Assembly (NCBI GenBank): GCA_019359375.1
Contig: JAHHHL010000040.1
Span: forward strand, 1 to 59,782
Direction of reading: 5' to 3'
Length of the DNA: 59,782 nucleotides
Origin: Lyngbya sp. HA4199-MV5
GTDB taxonomy: Bacteria > Cyanobacteriota > Cyanobacteriia > Leptolyngbyales > Leptolyngbyaceae
Positions 8,151-31,207 of this stretch are shown piece after piece. The notes under the pieces were generated by a model that saw nothing but the letters and a program-made list of their open reading frames with translations, was not told where the DNA came from and searched no databases. Position numbers and translations under genes: made by a program. Position 1 is the stretch's first letter, and the number at the start of each line of letters is the position of its first letter.

Positions 8151-11100
8151 TTAGTTGTTAGAACTTGGTTGAATGAGCTGAACAATCTGTTTAAATTGGA
8201 AGTTGTGAACCAAACGATCGAGTCCGGTTGACAGAGTGGAATAAGCTTGAGGAATTTGCTTAATTAAGTGAGACGCTTCATCATCATCGCAATGTTGAGC
8301 CGCTTGTTGGAGAGCAGCAAGCCAATCTGCTGGCATCACCTTTAAATCGTCAGGCGTTAGAACCAGGGGCTGAGCGCGCCCTGCACTGGTCATGGAAGTG
8401 AGTGAACTGTCTGCGGGCACGGCATTGCTTTCCGGTTGCTCTTCGTACACATAGAGCAACCCTAAATGTTCTGCCATTTTGGTAAATAGCTCGTCCTCTT
8501 TAAAGGGTTTGCTGAGGTAGTCGTTACAGCCAGCCGCGAGGGCAGTGGTGCGATCGGTGCAAGAGGCTTGAGCCGTCAACGCAATGATGGCGATCGACTG
8601 TCCTTCAGGGGTAGAGCGAATCGTTTGAGTGGCTTCATAGCCATCAACCTTTGGCATCCGAATATCCATCCACACGAGATGGGGATGCCACTGTGCCGTA
8701 AGGGCGATCGCCTCTTCTCCGTTGCAGGCTTGACGCACGTCTAACCCTAGCTGCGTCAACAGTTTCACCAACAGCCGACGATTTTCAGCCTGATCATCTA
8801 CCACTAAAATGCGGTAGAGCGGTTGACCGGGAGCCAGTCCAAGAATACGCTGCTGCGTTTTAGGCAACGGCACCTCTGCGGCGTGGGCAATTTGAATAGG
8901 GATGGTAACCCGAAACGTACTGCCCTGACCTAGAGTACTGCTGCCTGTCAGAGTTCCCCCCATTAGTTGCACAAAGCGACGGCTAATCGTCAAGCCTAAG
9001 CCTGTACCGTCGATTAACGTTTTTCCGGCTTGAGCCTGTGTAAAGGCATCAAAGATTGTTTCGAGTTCAGTGGTCGCAATGCCAACGCCCGTGTCTTCGA
9101 CTTCAAAGAGAAGGGTGTGGGGTGTGGGGTGTGGGGTGTGGGGTGTAGGGGGTAGGGTGTGGGGTGTGGAGGGTAGGGTGTGGGTTTGATCAGAATTCTC
9201 CGTGTCCCCGTGTATCCGTGTCTCCGTGTCCTCTCCTGCCTCCTGCCTCCTGCCTTCTGCCTCTTGTATGCTTACGCGCAGAATTACACTGCCTGTTTCG
9301 GTGAACTTAATGGCGTTGCCGAGCAAATTGATTAACACCTGACGGAGTTTGTTGGGGTCGGTGTTGATGTATCGCGGTAGATTATCTGTAATGTCAAGGT
9401 TAAACTGTAAGCCTTTGGTTTCTGCTTTGAGCCGGAGCATTTCCCACAGCGATCGCAGCAGGTCAATCACATCAAAATTGCTTTGATCAAAGGTGATGCG
9501 ATCGGCTTCAATTTTGGATAAATCCAGCACATCGTTGATCAGGGTCAACAGGTGTTCACCACTACGATGAATAATTTCGATGTACTCCTGCTGTTCTGGA
9601 GCAAAAGACGCATCGTGGTTCATGACCTGGGTAAAGCCTAAGATCACATTCAGGGGTGTGCGTAATTCGTGGCTCATGTTTGCCAGGAAAACGCTTTTGG
9701 CTCGATTTGCGACCTCTGCCGCTTCTTTTGCCCGTTGCAGTTCCAGTTCGACCTGTTTGCGCTCAGTAATATCTTTGTGCGTGCCAATCATGCGTAAGGG
9801 TGTGCCCTGAGCATCGTGAGCTGCTACTTTGCCGTAATCAGCAATCCATTTCCATGCCCCCGCTTTAGTGCGAACACGGTAATCGAAAGAATAGGGCACT
9901 GAACTGTCTTGCATGTGGGCATTGAGAATATCGAGCACCCAGGCTTGATCATCGGGATGGGTTAAAGACTCCCAGGTTGCCAAACTATTGGGTAATTCGC
10001 CCACTTCGTAGCCCAGCATATGCATGTATTGGGGGCTAAAATAAACCTCGTTTGTGGCAATGTTCCAATCCCACAGTCCATCGCCGGAGGCTTCTAGTGC
10101 CAGTTGCAAGCGTTCTTCGCTTTTTTGCAGTGCAATTTCGGCTTGATGTTGCAGGGTAATATCGATCGCCACCCCTCCGACCAACACCCGTCCTGAATCA
10201 CCTGGCAACGAAAATTTGTAGACGAGAAAATCGCCCAGAGTGCCATCTGAGCGAGGCGCAATTTCGACCGTTTCAACAATCTGCTGCGATCGGGCGACGG
10301 CTTGGATATTGTCTAGAAATTGTTGAGCAATTTCAAGCGGATAAAGCTCAAACACCGATCGACCGATCAAATCAGTTGTAGGCACCTGAAACGTGCGGTA
10401 GTAAGTCTGGCTCACATAGACCATCACGCCATTGGCATCAGTAATCCAGGCAGCAGCAGGGCTGTGATCCATAAATGCCTGGAAGCGAGCCTCACTTTCT
10501 CGCAGGGCCTCTTCTGCCTGCTGGCGCTCTGCCTCAATCCGCTTGCGATCGCTAATATCTTCAACAATGTACGAAAAGCGCGGCGGTTGACCGGGAAGTG
10601 TGGCAATCGAGCAAACCGTTGCCGATAACCATGCTTGCCCATTTAACGTTTGCTTATCTATCGTTTGCCCATCTAACATTTGGTGGAGATACTCAAACCG
10701 GACTGGCGCTTGTGTTTGTTGTGCTTCCTGGTAGTAACGGAGCCAAAGCTCTAAGTGCGGTTTGGATACACCCATTGCACTGGCAAATTGATGGCGCATC
10801 GCCTCTGATGTCGTGCCAAAGAACTTAGCAGTTGTTGGGTTATCTGAAATGTGTAGAATGTCGTCCTCATGCAGTTCCACAATCCCCATCAGCATGGAGC
10901 TACTGTCAAAAAAGCTGCGCAGGGTTGCTTCGCTTTGGCGCAACGCTTGTTCAGAGGCTTTGCGATCGCTGATATCTAATGCCGTGCCAAACAAGCGGGT
11001 AATGTGTCCTTGCTCATCCCGCAAAGCTCTGCCTTTCGCTTCCATATAGCCGATGGTGCCGTCAGTGCAGAAAAACCGTAGATCAACTTCATAAGGGATG

Positions 11101-21737: not shown

Positions 21738-22742
21738 CTAAAACATCCATTCGAGGTTAATGCCCACTCGACTATCGCTGCGAACGCGAGAATTTTGCTT
21801 CTGAAGATCCGTAGAGAGTCGCAGGTTGTGCGTGAGCGCATAGCCCAAAGAGAGCGTCGTCAATCCCACTTCGTTCTCGCTTCTAGGAGCAACCCAGCTT
21901 TGTGTTAACGCCAGATCAGCCGCCCCAGTACGCGAAGGTACTAACAGCAAGCGCACCCCTACATGAATGCCCTCTGTGTTGTATCGGGTCGTTTCTAAAT
22001 GGCGATAACCCAGCACTGGCGCAACATTAATCACACTGCCCAGTGGACGAATGTAGTAGCGCAAATCGCCTCCCCACGCAGTTCGCTGCCCATTAAACGC
22101 GGTTTGATAATCGGCGCTCAGCGTCAAACCCGATCGCCCCACAAAGATATCTTCAATGCCCACGTTCAGTCCACTTGCGTTCTTTGAAGAGGGAAACTGG
22201 ACATATCCCACACGTAACCGTGTCCGAAAGCTAGGGTCACGTTTGATATCGGCTAGAACATCTGGCACCTGCTTCAGCCAGCGTTGCAAGACAGGGCTGC
22301 TTTCAATGAGCCTGGGATCGAGGTCAAGCACAGAGTCAGGAGTACGTTTAAGCTTGAAGTCCTGAGCATCGCGTTGAAGGGCTTCCTGGTTGCTGGAAGC
22401 CATTGATGGTTCCTGCCCCGGCTCTTGCTTCTTAACACCCAGTTCCCGATTCGTCCTTTCTGCCTCCTGTCTCCTGCCTTCTGCCTCCTGCCTCCTGCCT
22501 TCTGCCTCCTGCCCTCTGCCTTCTGCCTCCTGCCCTCTGCCTACTGCCTTCATCTCCTCCGCCACAAAACCGTTCTTCAATGGCGGGCGTTGCTCTACAA
22601 GATCGATCGCCGAGCGTGAAATACCTTCAACTGGCGCACTCCAGGCAGGACACGCAACCAGGGAAAGATTCGCAACGAAAAGTGTCTGGAAAAACCAATG
22701 GTTAAGGGATAGGTGCGATCGCAACAGGGTAACTCGATACAT
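21738..22742 (-). CDS. Secreted beta-barrel outer-membrane-type protein, with repeat insert
   Basis: Start chosen at 22742 ([18 protein letters not shown]) because a signal peptide follows ([20 protein letters not shown], cleavage near AWSA). The C-terminal half alternates hydrophobic and polar residues as in a beta barrel ([39 protein letters not shown]) and ends in phenylalanine, the usual recognition residue for outer-membrane assembly. Residues around 75-115 are translated heptamer repeat ([15 protein letters not shown]). I do not recognise the family beyond this. It is divergent from nothing nearby; the acsF terminator lies just upstream. Confidence 0.7.
22460..22551 (-). repeat. Heptamer repeat tract inside the outer-membrane-type gene
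   Basis: About thirteen consecutive CTGCCTY/CTGCCCT heptamers read on the plus strand. On the coding strand they give four [14 protein letters not shown] heptapeptides in frame, between the signal-peptide region and the barrel. This is the longest uninterrupted heptamer run in the window. Confidence 0.9.
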
Positions 22743-25916: not shown

Positions 25917-26804
25917 TTGAATGAACCCGTGCCTCCATTATCACCACAAGCTATCCATCTCCATACGTTAGTGCAGGGACAGGGCTTTCCCATTCTCTGC
26001 CTGCATGGGCACCCAGGATTTGCTCAGAGCCTGTCAGTGTTTACACAGCCTTTCTCCAAACACTTCAGGACGATCGCGCCTGATTTGCGGGGGTATGGTC
26101 GCAGTCGTGCAGGGGCAGCGTTTGTGATGACCGACCACCTGAATGATTTAGAGGCACTACTCGATCGTTACGCCATCGATCGCTGTCTGGTTTTAGGCTG
26201 GTCATTGGGCGGCATCTTAGCGTTGGAATTGGCGTTACGACTGCCCAACCGAGTCAGCGGTTTGATCTTAGTGGCAACAGCCGCGCATCCCAAAAGCAGC
26301 CATCCCGCGATCGACTGGCAGGATAATGTCTACACGGGTATTGCATCGATTCTAAATTGGTTCAGCCCCGGCTGGCAGTGGAATATAGACACCTTTGGGC
26401 AGCGATCGCTCTATCGCTATTTAATTCAGCAACACACCCCTACTGCTTATCAATACTTAGCCAAAGAAGCCTTACCAGCTTTTCTACAAACGTCCAATCA
26501 AGCCACAAGCGCTCTGTCGATGGCGCTTCAGCGAGGCTACAACCGCTTGCCCGATCTCTCTGCGATCCAGTGCCCATGTCTTGTGCTTGCTGGAGCGGAC
26601 GATCGTCACATTACGGCTGCATCCAGTTTAGAAACCGCTCAGGCATTGCCCCAAGCCACGTACCACTGCTACCCCAACGCGGCTCATCTTTTTCCGTGGG
26701 AGATCCCAGCGGTTGTAAGAGCAGACATCGATCGCTGGCTTGACGAAAATCCAGCAGTCATCACGCCGCCAGAAGGGTTCAATGTAGTGTCTGCCGCCCA
26801 CTAA
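25917..26804 (+). CDS. Alpha/beta hydrolase
   Basis: 295 residues with the alpha/beta hydrolase layout. The oxyanion region is LCLHGHPGF, then DLRGYGRS, the nucleophile elbow GWSLGG (serine about 98), a late acid in LAGADDRHI, and the catalytic histidine in NAAHLFPWE. The start is a TTG at 25917 (in-frame stop at 25902 upstream, no ATG until residue 77). Closest in general shape to esterases and haloperoxidase-like hydrolases; substrate not predictable. It stands in a plus-strand position between minus-strand genes. Confidence 0.85.
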   Translation: MNEPVPPLSPQAIHLHTLVQGQGFPILCLHGHPGFAQSLSVFTQPFSKHFRTIAPDLRGYGRSRAGAAFVMTDHLNDLEALLDRYAIDRCLVLGWSLGGILALELALRLPNRVSGLILVATAAHPKSSHPAIDWQDNVYTGIASILNWFSPGWQWNIDTFGQRSLYRYLIQQHTPTAYQYLAKEALPAFLQTSNQATSALSMALQRGYNRLPDLSAIQCPCLVLAGADDRHITAASSLETAQALPQATYHCYPNAAHLFPWEIPAVVRADIDRWLDENPAVITPPEGFNVVSAAH

Positions 26805-26938: not shown

Positions 26939-26977
26939 TAGCCTCTGCCCTCTGCCTTCTGCCCTCTGCCTTCTCCC
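26939..26977 (-). repeat. Heptamer repeat tract after the UAAP1 gene
   Basis: CTCTGCC/CTTCTGC heptamers abut the stop codon of the DUF1989 gene at 26978. Part of the same family as the tracts in radA, mutM and the barrel protein. Confidence 0.75.
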
Positions 26978-27724
26978 TCAAACTAACTGCGCCAAATACG
27001 CATCGGTATTCTGGAACCCACGCTCTGCTTCTGGGTTGCCTGTTCGCACGGGATCGTTGGCAGTGGATGCGGGAGCATTCCAGACGATCGCCCGAAGCGG
27101 TTTGGCATCATACGTTGGACTCGGATCAAGTGGATGGGGGCAGTTCGACAGCACGACCAACACGTTCATTTCGGCTCGTAAATCGATAAAATCTCCTGGC
27201 TGCGCGGTCTTCTCTGCCCACGATAAGTTCCCGTCTGGATCGACCGCAATCCGTGTAAACAAATTGAGATTTGGCATGATGTCTTTCTTGCCCAGGTTGC
27301 GTTTGATGAGTGCCAGCAAGAAGTTATCCCGTGAGTTTTTGTAATCACCCTCACCACTCTTTGTTGGATCGCCTTCGCGATACTTCGTGTTGGTCGCTAA
27401 ATTGCTGCATCCGCCCAGCGTGTCGTGTAAGCCACAGGAGTCTTCGGTGATGGAAAACAAGACGCGACCCATATCGGAGTAGAGCAACATCCCTTTTTTG
27501 AGGAACGCGTTGAACTGAATTTTGGCGGTATCGGCAGCGTTATACCGTTCGATCGCGTTGTCGGCGTTGTAACAGAGAAACGCTACTCCTCTAGAGCCTT
27601 CGGGCGCAAGAAGACGGAGGGTCGTGCCGCGCTTGATGACACGCGACCAATAGGCACCACCTGGAATAATTTCATCCCAGGTAACGAGGGCTGGATCGAT
27701 CGTGGTTTTTACTTCGGTAGACAT
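26978..27724 (-). CDS. Urea carboxylase-associated protein 1 (UAAP1, DUF1989)
   Basis: 248 residues. Pattern of the UAAP1 group: IIPGGAYWSRVIKRGTTLRL, CYNADNAIERYNAADT, LLYSDMGRVLFSIT, CGLHDTLGGCSN, GDFIDLRAEMNVLVVLSNCP and AERGFQNTDAYL. Likely metal ligands C97, H100 and C195 are present. In characterised guanidine-utilising bacteria the two DUF1989 proteins together form the carboxyguanidine deiminase that acts between guanidine carboxylase and allophanate hydrolase. Here the gene is alone: no second DUF1989 gene, carboxylase, hydrolase or transporter lies within the window. AAGGAG with a 6-base gap supports the start at 27724. A guanidine-I riboswitch and terminator occupy the leader, so guanidine should switch it on. 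Confidence 0.88.
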   Translation of the reverse strand: MSTEVKTTIDPALVTWDEIIPGGAYWSRVIKRGTTLRLLAPEGSRGVAFLCYNADNAIERYNAADTAKIQFNAFLKKGMLLYSDMGRVLFSITEDSCGLHDTLGGCSNLATNTKYREGDPTKSGEGDYKNSRDNFLLALIKRNLGKKDIMPNLNLFTRIAVDPDGNLSWAEKTAQPGDFIDLRAEMNVLVVLSNCPHPLDPSPTYDAKPLRAIVWNAPASTANDPVRTGNPEAERGFQNTDAYLAQLV

Positions 27725-27753
27725 GCGATACTCCTTAACTCAACAAACGACTG

Positions 27754-27809
27754 AAACAACAAAGCCCAGGAAGCCGACAACAATTACTGCTGCTTGGCTC
27801 TCCCGGGCT
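27754..27809 (-). terminator. Riboswitch-controlled terminator
   Basis: On the minus strand AGCCCGGGAGAGCC (27796-27809) can pair with GGCTTCCTGGGCT (27762-27775), followed by TTGTTGTTT. The first arm is also the conserved 3' part of the riboswitch core, so ligand-bound aptamer and terminator exclude each other. This predicts an ON switch. Confidence 0.8.
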
Positions 27810-27912
27810 TTTTTCCCGCCGTGTGACCGCTTTCCTGGTTGCAGGCTCCAAGCGGCTGCTTCTCTCGGACCAGGCATCTCACTCAAGCAAGACCGGAACC
27901 CTAGAAGCGAAT
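27797..27912 (-). promoter_or_regulatory. Guanidine-I (ykkC) riboswitch aptamer
   Basis: Read on the minus strand the leader carries the highly conserved blocks of this class in order: CTAGGGTTCCGG, CTGGTCCGAGAGAAGC, a variable stem CCGCTT...AAGCGG, then ACACGGCGGGAAAAAAGCCC and GGGAGA. This class binds free guanidinium. It sits about 75 bases upstream of the UAAP1 start, followed by a terminator that reuses its last arm. The assignment rests on direct match to the known consensus blocks. Confidence 0.95.
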
Positions 27913-30060: not shown

Positions 30061-30232
30061 AGTTAGGAGGCAGAAGGCAGAAGGCAGGAGGCAGAAGGCA
30101 GGAGAATTCATGACTAACAACTAAAAACCAACAACCAACAACCAACAACTGTCGCAACTCAAACTTTTAGCCTTTAGCCTTTAGCGTTCATTTTTTAGCC
30201 TTTAGCCTTCATCCTTTAGCCTTTAGCTTCTG
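30061..30232. repeat. Cluster of three unrelated heptamer repeat tracts
   Basis: GGCAGAA/GGCAGGA units at about 30067-30103, ACCAACA units at about 30125-30150, and TTTAGCC units (with variants) at about 30171-30230. The last tract overlaps the 3' end of mutM and supplies its final codons (KLKAKG). Three different heptamers side by side in about 170 bases fill the gap between mutM and the TPR gene. Confidence 0.8.
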
Positions 30233-31207
30233 GCACATTGGACAAAAATGCGCCGATCGCCCTGCCATTCTAAGACGTTCGATCGCCGTTTCACAATTGC
30301 GGCATAGATCTCCATCGCGCCCGTAGACCCAGGCAGAACCGCCATAATTGCCGTTGACCCCTGCCACACTGCGAAACGATCGAAATGTCGTGCCCCTTGC
30401 CTCAATGCTTGCTTGAAGAACTTGCGCAATGTTCGATCGCAGTTGCTCAATTTGAGACTGCTTGAGATGAATGCAGAGCGTTTGGGGATGAATGCCGCTC
30501 AGAAAAAGGGCTTCATCCGCGTAGATATTGCCAATACCCGCGACGATCGCTTGATCTAACAACGCATTCTTGATTGGGCGACGACGCTGAAGTTGACGAG
30601 TGAAATAGGCAACGGAAAACTCCTCTGAAAATGGCTCTGGACCTAGCTGCTGTAAGCCAGTGATGATCTGCTCTGGCTCATGCTCTGGCGGCACCCACCA
30701 CATCTGCCCAAACGTGCGCTGATCCACAAAGCGCAACTCCTTGCCATCTCCAAAAAACAGTCGGACTCTTGCGTGTTTTTCCAGTGGTGTCGTCTGGTCT
30801 ACCCAGAGAAGCTGCCCTGTCATGCGGAGGTGAACGCCGAGCCAGCCGGAAGAGTGAGGGGGTAGGGAGTGGGGAGTAGGGAGTAGGGAGTAAGTGCCAG
30901 AGGGGGAAGCGGCGATCGGGCGAGAGGATAATGCAGAAATTCTAGAACTCCTGCCCTCTGCCTCCTGCCTCCTGCCCTCTGCCTCCTGCCTCCTGCCCTC
31001 TGCCTTAATCAACTCTGCCAGCAAATACTTCCCGCGTCGATGCCACTGGACGATCGCCGTTCCCTGCAACCCCGCCAGAAAATTTGGCGCTGAAAAAGGG
31101 TGGGCGATGGTGCGATCAAGCAACACATCCCCACCCTCAATGGGTTGTTGCAGGGTTACGTCGTTTAAACCCCGCCGAACTGTTTCTACTTCAGGCAACT
31201 CAGGCAC
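30209..31207 (-). CDS. mutM: Formamidopyrimidine-DNA glycosylase MutM (Fpg), with repeat insert
   Basis: Base-excision repair enzyme that removes 8-oxoguanine and formamidopyrimidines and nicks the strand. Catalytic N-terminus PELPEVETVRRGL (P2, E3), K60 in RRGKYLLAEL, the helix-two-turn-helix ending DQAIVAGIGNIYADEALF, and a C-terminal zinc finger (C302-x2-C305, C322-x2-C325). At 332 residues it is about 50 longer than usual. The excess, residues 68-119, interrupts the strand pair LLAEL / GWLGVHLRMTGQ and reads as RRQEAEG repeats followed by SLLPTPHSLPPHSS. Everything else is in place, so the enzyme is probably active. Two repair genes in this window (radA and mutM) carry such inserts. Confidence 0.95.
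   Translation of the reverse strand: MPELPEVETVRRGLNDVTLQQPIEGGDVLLDRTIAHPFSAPNFLAGLQGTAIVQWHRRGKYLLAELIKAEGRRQEAEGRRQEAEGRSSRISALSSRPIAASPSGTYSLLPTPHSLPPHSSGWLGVHLRMTGQLLWVDQTTPLEKHARVRLFFGDGKELRFVDQRTFGQMWWVPPEHEPEQIITGLQQLGPEPFSEEFSVAYFTRQLQRRRPIKNALLDQAIVAGIGNIYADEALFLSGIHPQTLCIHLKQSQIEQLRSNIAQVLQASIEARGTTFRSFRSVAGVNGNYGGSAWVYGRDGDLCRNCETAIERLRMAGRSAHFCPMCQKLKAKG
30851..31006 (-). repeat. Heptamer repeat tract inserted in frame in mutM
   Basis: CTGCCTC/CTGCCCT heptamers at about 30954-31006 (read RRQEAEG) and GGGAGTA heptamers at about 30865-30892, linked by non-repetitive bases. Net length 156, a multiple of three. The insertion point is a hairpin loop next to the substrate-binding strand in the N-terminal domain. 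Confidence 0.85.

Follow-up and report, generated by a model that had tools for sequence, protein, structure and literature searches.

A riboswitch-controlled UAAP1 gene of Lyngbya sp. HA4199-MV5 as a probable deiminase subunit of a dispersed guanidine carboxylase pathway

Why a guanidine-I riboswitch should stand in front of a single UAAP1 gene is the question raised by this locus of Lyngbya sp. HA4199-MV5. The window, meaning the whole stretch of DNA that was analysed, is contig JAHHHL010000040.1 (59,782 nt; C22 in our genome-internal numbering). An initial annotation had left three readings of the lone gene: a scattered pathway, a homomeric enzyme with a new reaction, or a sensor or scavenging role. 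The first of these was supported and the other two are disfavoured; UAAP1 is, with a probability of about 0.86, the riboswitch-controlled CgdA subunit of a carboxyguanidine deiminase within a dispersed guanidine carboxylase pathway. The features of the locus, in window positions, are the following.

27915-27798, minus strand: guanidine-I riboswitch aptamer (RF00442; cmscan 80.0 bits, gathering threshold 63, E 1.2e-12, model positions 1-107)
27811-27753, minus strand: expression platform, in which the last aptamer helix and the 5' arm of a hairpin overlap and a weak T-run comes next (from folding of the strand)
27736-27731, minus strand: ribosome-binding-site-like AAGGAG ahead of the ATG at 27724 (from inspection of the sequence)
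27724-26978, minus strand: UAAP1, a putative CgdA-type DUF1989 protein of 248 aa with an ATG start (TIGR03425 and PF09347)
26977-26909, minus strand: short array of 7-base repeats (26947-26974) with its tail, directly behind UAAP1 and similar to the spacer between UAAP1 and UAAP2 in Tildeniella nuda (L030)

The riboswitch proposed ahead of UAAP1 was recovered above the gathering threshold as one of two guanidine-I matches found by Infernal in the genome, and as the sole one within the window; the range previously assigned to the locus (26978-27912) was correct to within a few bases, and the strand, left unstated there, is the minus strand. Folding also bore out the claim that the last aptamer arm doubles as the 5' arm of a hairpin, with positions 27811-27796 belonging to both structures and the closing arm of the hairpin at 27775-27761. 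The T-run after the hairpin, GTTGTTTC, is imperfect. The whole leader folded better than most of its shuffled versions (z -2.4), with 4 of 200 shuffles folding equally well. When short segments cut to contain the hairpin were folded from the window and from 22 relatives picked for having the aptamer blocks, the overlapping hairpin formed in all 23 (20 of them distinct). The last helix is shared with the hairpin in every one of these segments, yet the T-run is weak and the hairpin of the UAAP1 leader was not listed by a simple terminator scan of the minus strand, which counts against our main reading. No sigma-70-like promoter was listed by the scan of this strand. Guanidine binding would be expected to steady the last aptamer helix and thereby block the overlapping hairpin, so that UAAP1 would be transcribed.

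Among relatives, a pattern search with mismatches detected the three aptamer blocks up to 600 nt ahead of UAAP1 at 22 of 32 cyanobacterial named loci (out of 48 UAAP1 loci), the 10 loci without them including one (L053) with just 152 nt of upstream sequence. A riboswitch within 700 nt upstream and on the same strand was present for at least 28 of the 49 UAAP1 genes compared. Therefore, the riboswitch is not always beside UAAP1, and this also counts against the main reading.

The assignment of the gene product as a UAAP1-type DUF1989 protein was upheld by a score of 302 bits against TIGR03425 'UAAP1' (cut-off 206) and of 195 bits against PF09347; its closest homologues among named relatives are the UAAP1 proteins of Stenomitos, Tildeniella and Leptolyngbya strains. 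The description of the gene as lone also holds locally, as the next gene downstream (25917-26804), which encodes an alpha/beta hydrolase, lies on the opposite strand and UAAP1 is monocistronic.

Searches of the whole genome (6.9 Mb, 95 contigs, rated 100% complete) for the partners suggested at the outset, UAAP2 and a guanidine carboxylase, located both of them on other contigs. The genome has two DUF1989 genes, UAAP1 on C22 and UAAP2 on C24, the latter scoring 344 bits with the UAAP2 model (cut-off 285), so both types of deiminase subunit are encoded. A full-length carboxylase gene is present on C82 (TIGR02712, 1907 bits, cut-off 1304). Aspartates at the positions of residues 1330 and 1584 of the K. 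lactis enzyme are the two criteria for guanidine carboxylases (PMC11410670), which are distinguished from urea carboxylases by an active-site Asp/Asn difference (PMC12186494). In the C82 enzyme both aspartates were aligned, Asp697 being opposite K. lactis Asn1330 in the alignment to 5i8i chain A and the Asp of a GLGD motif opposite Asp1584, a position counted by hand. The second guanidine-I riboswitch, on C32, leads genes for a substrate-binding protein, a permease and an ATPase. In the pathway that we propose, guanidine would enter through this ABC importer, the C82 carboxylase would convert it to carboxyguanidine, and UAAP1 together with UAAP2 would deiminate carboxyguanidine to allophanate.

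A complete carboxylase cluster under another guanidine riboswitch, which according to the initial annotation would make this locus a simple split operon, was not encountered: the genome has no such cluster, and UAAP2 and the carboxylase have no guanidine riboswitch, an Infernal search at E≤0.1 of L014, L015 and L024 giving one tRNA only. None was found either at the carboxylase loci of five other members of the genus. The guanidine switches detected are thus limited to UAAP1 and the importer, with a single deiminase subunit under such control, and their absence from UAAP2 and the carboxylase counts against the main reading.

The importer genes on C32 are 73%, 76% and 84% identical to those of a riboswitch-led gdmH-type operon of a genome of the same family (L146), where 'gdmH-type' is the label given here to proteins of ~395 residues encoded behind guanidine-I riboswitches of four other genomes; at three of the four other riboswitch-led loci compared, the protein matches its L146 counterpart at 82-88%. 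On C32 (L003, 8711-12129) no gdmH lies between the switch and the importer, which suggests that this locus has lost the hydrolase genes or never acquired them. The guanidine hydrolase that had been pointed to as frequent in cyanobacteria was not found in the genome, the arginase-family (PF00491) search giving one protein, which over 271 residues shares 28% identity with the gdmH-type protein from L146. This protein was rejected as a GdmH because of its distance from the gdmH-type proteins of the four genomes (25-28% identity); it passes an agmatinase model, which alone does not exclude GdmH, and no riboswitch was detected in its 2.9-kb locus.

The association of these genes was then surveyed in 291 cyanobacterial genomes of the class. 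DUF1989 was found in 81 of them, the carboxylase at E≤1e-200 in 52 (47 over the cut-off), allophanate hydrolase at E≤1e-100 in 27, an AtzE protein at E≤1e-150 in 118 and the guanidine-I riboswitch in 158 (151 over the cut-off). After removal of matches in frames longer than 500 residues, short DUF1989 genes were present in 55 genomes. UAAP1 and UAAP2, assigned across the sample from gene adjacency and from PF09347 scores (TIGR models were applied to the two proteins of our genome and to six from relatives), occurred together in 51 genomes, and every one of these also had the carboxylase. The two genes form an adjacent, same-strand pair in 49 of the 51, all with the carboxylase, which lies directly downstream of the pair in 40; they are apart in the remaining two, our genome and the relative G270, whose copies are at contig ends. 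Of the 49 pairs, one is damaged by stops in one gene (G246) and two are cut off at contig ends (G114 and G276). Pair and carboxylase are on different contigs in G114, G260, G276 and G282, where an assembly break and a real separation look alike. Exceptions were a single short DUF1989 gene without the carboxylase in G020, G152, G189 and G233, of which that of G152 falls in the UAAP2 score range and is counted against the main reading, and a carboxylase without any DUF1989 match in G284 (76% complete). By these counts, with few exceptions the pair is accompanied by the carboxylase and vice versa, and the two genes of the pair are seldom apart.

DUF1989 in frames of more than 500 residues was seen in 35 of the 291 genomes. 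Two such proteins of ~620 aa (L142, 2483-4354; L143, 850-2715) have an N-terminal DUF1989 and a C-terminal part that reads like a GcvT-type aminomethyltransferase, so that they resemble a shortened trimethylamine N-oxide demethylase.

The predicted structure of UAAP1 (pLDDT 86) has the DUF1989 fold, with 3siy, 3oru and 3di4 as the nearest solved structures. Its residues were compared with those of UAAP2 in an alignment of 48 UAAP1 and 50 UAAP2 sequences (relatives of at least 50% identity and more than 170 residues, with identical rows and our own copies counted once). In UAAP2, Cys106, Cys125, Cys189, His99 and Asp100 are invariant (50/50) and Cys196 is kept in 48 of 50. The column of Cys125 holds Ser, Ala or Thr in all 48 UAAP1 sequences, in which Cys97 is a cysteine in 20 and Cys195 in 38; Asp101 is kept in 48/48, His100 in 44/48 and Cys106, which is one column off the Cys106 of UAAP2, also in 44/48. 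The UAAP1 of the window has all the residues compared except the equivalents of Cys125 and Cys196. The UAAP1 of Tildeniella nuda (L030, 8001-8720) reads EDTAGLND where EDTCGLHD is found elsewhere, with both the motif Cys and the His lost. A phmmer alignment placed cysteines of the DUF1989 part of trimethylamine N-oxide demethylase at corresponding places, including one missing from UAAP1, and three of these cysteines are taken by us to bind zinc in the demethylase. The simplest inference from this pattern is that UAAP2 carries a complete metal site and that UAAP1 is a dependent partner, which fits a heteromeric carboxyguanidine deiminase, a term of PMC11410670, and argues against a homomeric UAAP1 enzyme. 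We assume that UAAP1 corresponds to CgdA and UAAP2 to CgdB.

Regarding how the operon came apart, the carboxylase is separate from UAAP1 and UAAP2 in all six sampled genomes of the genus. The gene upstream of our carboxylase reads, by eye, like a penicillin-binding protein, and nucleotide similarity upstream of the carboxylase extends through four of the five other members. UAAP2 is tail-to-tail with gatA in four of these five, and the gatA locus of our genome (L025) is without UAAP2. On C24, a truncated transposase reading frame ends ~50 nt upstream of UAAP2. The fragment had no Pfam match, and by tblastn against plasmid records it matched IS701-family transposases on cyanobacterial plasmids (five of the best 12 matches are annotated IS701, in a set of 133 records mostly from Acinetobacter); its outer 98 bases are also present, with 94% identity, where three other contigs end. 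On the UAAP1 side, the 7-base array and its tail are probably a remnant of the old UAAP1-UAAP2 spacer, to judge from a 28-base tail core that, allowing up to three mismatches, was found elsewhere only in the L030 spacer when the window and 11 other loci were searched. The 7-base arrays alone are common in the genome, with six in the window and 13 in 119 kb of other loci. Those of the window (GCCTTCT/GCCCTCT type; 2094-2128, 9238-9258, 22476-22538, 26947-26974, 30065-30099 and 30953-31001) are scattered between and inside reading frames, one of them directly after UAAP1.

Insertion followed by rearrangement is the simplest reading of the split, for which we infer an order of two events. The carboxylase would have been detached from a UAAP1-UAAP2-carboxylase operon in the genus, and UAAP1 and UAAP2 would have been separated in our genome, probably by insertion-sequence activity. 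Pairwise dN/dS values of our genes against five relatives each were 0.053-0.064 for UAAP1 and 0.025-0.048 for UAAP2; such low values argue that neither gene is a long-standing pseudogene, while being silent on constraint after the split. In Stenomitos frigidus ULC18 (L029, 8766-8844) and in G270 (L092, 2050-2317), assemblies that have one contig of 10866 bases in common, UAAP1 and UAAP2 are each near a contig end, and those ends in G270 resemble, by eye, the inverted repeats of an inserted element. This suggests a separate insertion between the same two genes in Stenomitos frigidus ULC18/G270.

The split itself rests on one draft assembly and could reflect a mis-join at either gene, a point that counts against the main reading. 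UAAP1 and UAAP2 would then be truly adjacent and two contigs would have been wrongly joined at repeats, an explanation favoured by the 95 contigs of the genome, by the repeats at both breakpoints (a 28-base array of a common kind after UAAP1 and the end of a multi-copy insertion sequence before UAAP2) and by the position of both genes at contig ends in G270. Nevertheless, 27 kb separate UAAP1 from an end of its 59.8-kb contig and 9 kb separate UAAP2 from an end of its 59.3-kb contig, the array is short, and the insertion-sequence remnant is truncated and shares 94% identity with the other copies over 98 bases. Moreover, the tail-to-tail arrangement of UAAP2 and gatA in four of the five other members is missing from our gatA locus. 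We regard such an artefact as unlikely; it would remove the split only and leave the pathway reading intact, so that its probability overlaps with that of the main reading.

The explanations that would replace the pathway are less probable. That UAAP1 forms a homomeric enzyme by itself and catalyses a new reaction, with guanidine or a similar compound as substrate, could be argued from its being the only DUF1989 gene under a riboswitch in the genome, intact, constrained according to dN/dS, of DUF1989 fold and with the motif residues Asp101, His100 and Cys106 largely kept. It is made very unlikely by the presence of intact UAAP2 and carboxylase genes, by the co-occurrence of the three in 51/51 genomes, by the lack of the UAAP2-invariant Cys125 in all 48 UAAP1 sequences together with the variable Cys97 and Cys195, and by the finding of no sampled genome in which a gene in the UAAP1 range stands without partner and carboxylase. 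A guanidine sensor or scavenger without a catalytic partner would agree with a monocistronic gene under a switch and with the missing cysteine, but a non-catalytic subunit of a deiminase explains that loss equally well, and the partner genes are not only present and co-occurring with the carboxylase but adjacent to each other in 49 of 51 genomes, leaving little room for this role. It is most improbable that the carboxylase and the UAAP genes serve urea, with the riboswitch as a relic: the families are named for their association with urea amidolyase, but the carboxylase has the signature Asp at the K. lactis 1330 position, the aptamer is intact at 80 bits with its hairpin conserved, and the genome already has two urease-alpha matches.

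For the last step of the dispersed carboxylase pathway, the search for allophanate hydrolase (TIGR02713), a component expected by the initial annotation, gave nothing over the cut-off of 511 in our genome, the best score being 228.8 bits at the gatA locus (C95), and none was found at E≤1e-100 in the six members of the genus. This counts against the main reading at its last canonical step. On C18 (L024, 4750-6808), genes for a stand-alone AH_C protein (149 aa), an AtzG-like protein (~62 aa) and an AtzE-family amidase (467 aa) follow in a row. Twenty AtzE loci were fetched from the 118 genomes with AtzE: 10 had the AH_C-AtzG-AtzE set, nine AtzG and AtzE with no AH_C detected, and one AtzE alone; the set was present at 10 of the 11 loci from the family and at none of the nine others. 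Among the 52 carboxylase genomes, two had both AtzE and allophanate hydrolase, 16 only the hydrolase, 24 only AtzE and 10 neither, an anti-correlation with a Fisher p of 8e-5, uncorrected for relatedness. There was no overall enrichment of AtzE with the carboxylase (p 0.16), and genomes of the family that lack the carboxylase (G115, G128 and G142) have the set too, so it is not specific to guanidine. As a dedicated substitute for allophanate hydrolase the set was therefore rejected, being kept as a possibility only. A second stand-alone AH_C gene (138 aa; L026, 6638-7054) was seen beside an opposite-strand ORF that reads like a hydantoinase/carbamoylase-type amidohydrolase. Allophanate is unstable and yields urea and CO2 (PMC6219798); given the urease in the genome, a dedicated hydrolase may not be needed. 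Thus the AH_C-AtzG-AtzE set, or decarboxylation to urea followed by urease, may fill the allophanate step.

A tentative extension of the main reading, which we hold to be possible but doubtful, concerns regulation. UAAP2 and the carboxylase would be made without a guanidine switch and UAAP1 only in the presence of guanidine, so that the heteromeric deiminase would be gated through one subunit, and either the AH_C-AtzG-AtzE set or the spontaneous decarboxylation of allophanate to urea, with urease, would stand in for the missing allophanate hydrolase. The residual interest of the locus lies in this regulation, the guanidine switch having been detected only at UAAP1 and the importer, and the arrangement offers a natural test of whether control of one subunit suffices to control a two-subunit enzyme. 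What seemed an orphan riboswitch gene is here a case of operon break-up, and a warning that the immediate gene neighbourhood by itself is no basis for inferring new chemistry.

Guanidine degradation by way of carboxyguanidine and allophanate has already been stated for several cyanobacteria (PMC12930504). Cyanobacterial carboxylase operons may also have been described in PMC12704784, whose title names guanidine assimilation and riboswitches in cyanobacteria, and for this reason those operons are not claimed here as unpublished. Among the matches listed for the literature on cyanobacterial guanidine use and on UAAP1/DUF1989, titles and abstract openings contained no description of a lone or split UAAP1.

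With respect to known systems, the guanidine carboxylase pathway of enterobacteria and halophiles comprises the carboxylase GC, the carboxyguanidine deiminase CgdAB and allophanate hydrolase (PMC12186494, PMC12508155). The system described here shares with it the guanidine-I control, an ABC importer, a carboxylase with the signature Asp and the UAAP1/UAAP2 (CgdA/CgdB) families. In contrast to those operons, the genes are on four contigs, riboswitches were detected only at UAAP1 and the importer, and no canonical allophanate hydrolase was found over the cut-off. Gene numbers of the gll type are presumably those of Gloeobacter violaceus. Genes gll0960, gll0959 and gll0958, listed in PMC6737895, represent the cyanobacterial UAAP1-UAAP2-carboxylase operon. 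The UAAP1-UAAP2-carboxylase operon, seen in 40 genomes of our sample, has the same protein families as our genome, and many such operons likewise have an upstream guanidine-I riboswitch and hairpin; unlike in these operons, the carboxylase is detached in the six sampled genomes of the genus, and UAAP1 and UAAP2 are apart in our genome. Finally, the GdmH (Sll1077) operon of Synechocystis and other cyanobacteria differs by its gdmH gene, which was not found in our genome, but resembles the C32 locus in its guanidine-I riboswitch and related ABC importer (73-84% identity to that of L146). This lineage would thus combine the carboxylase route with a riboswitch-led importer of the kind found in guanidine hydrolase operons.
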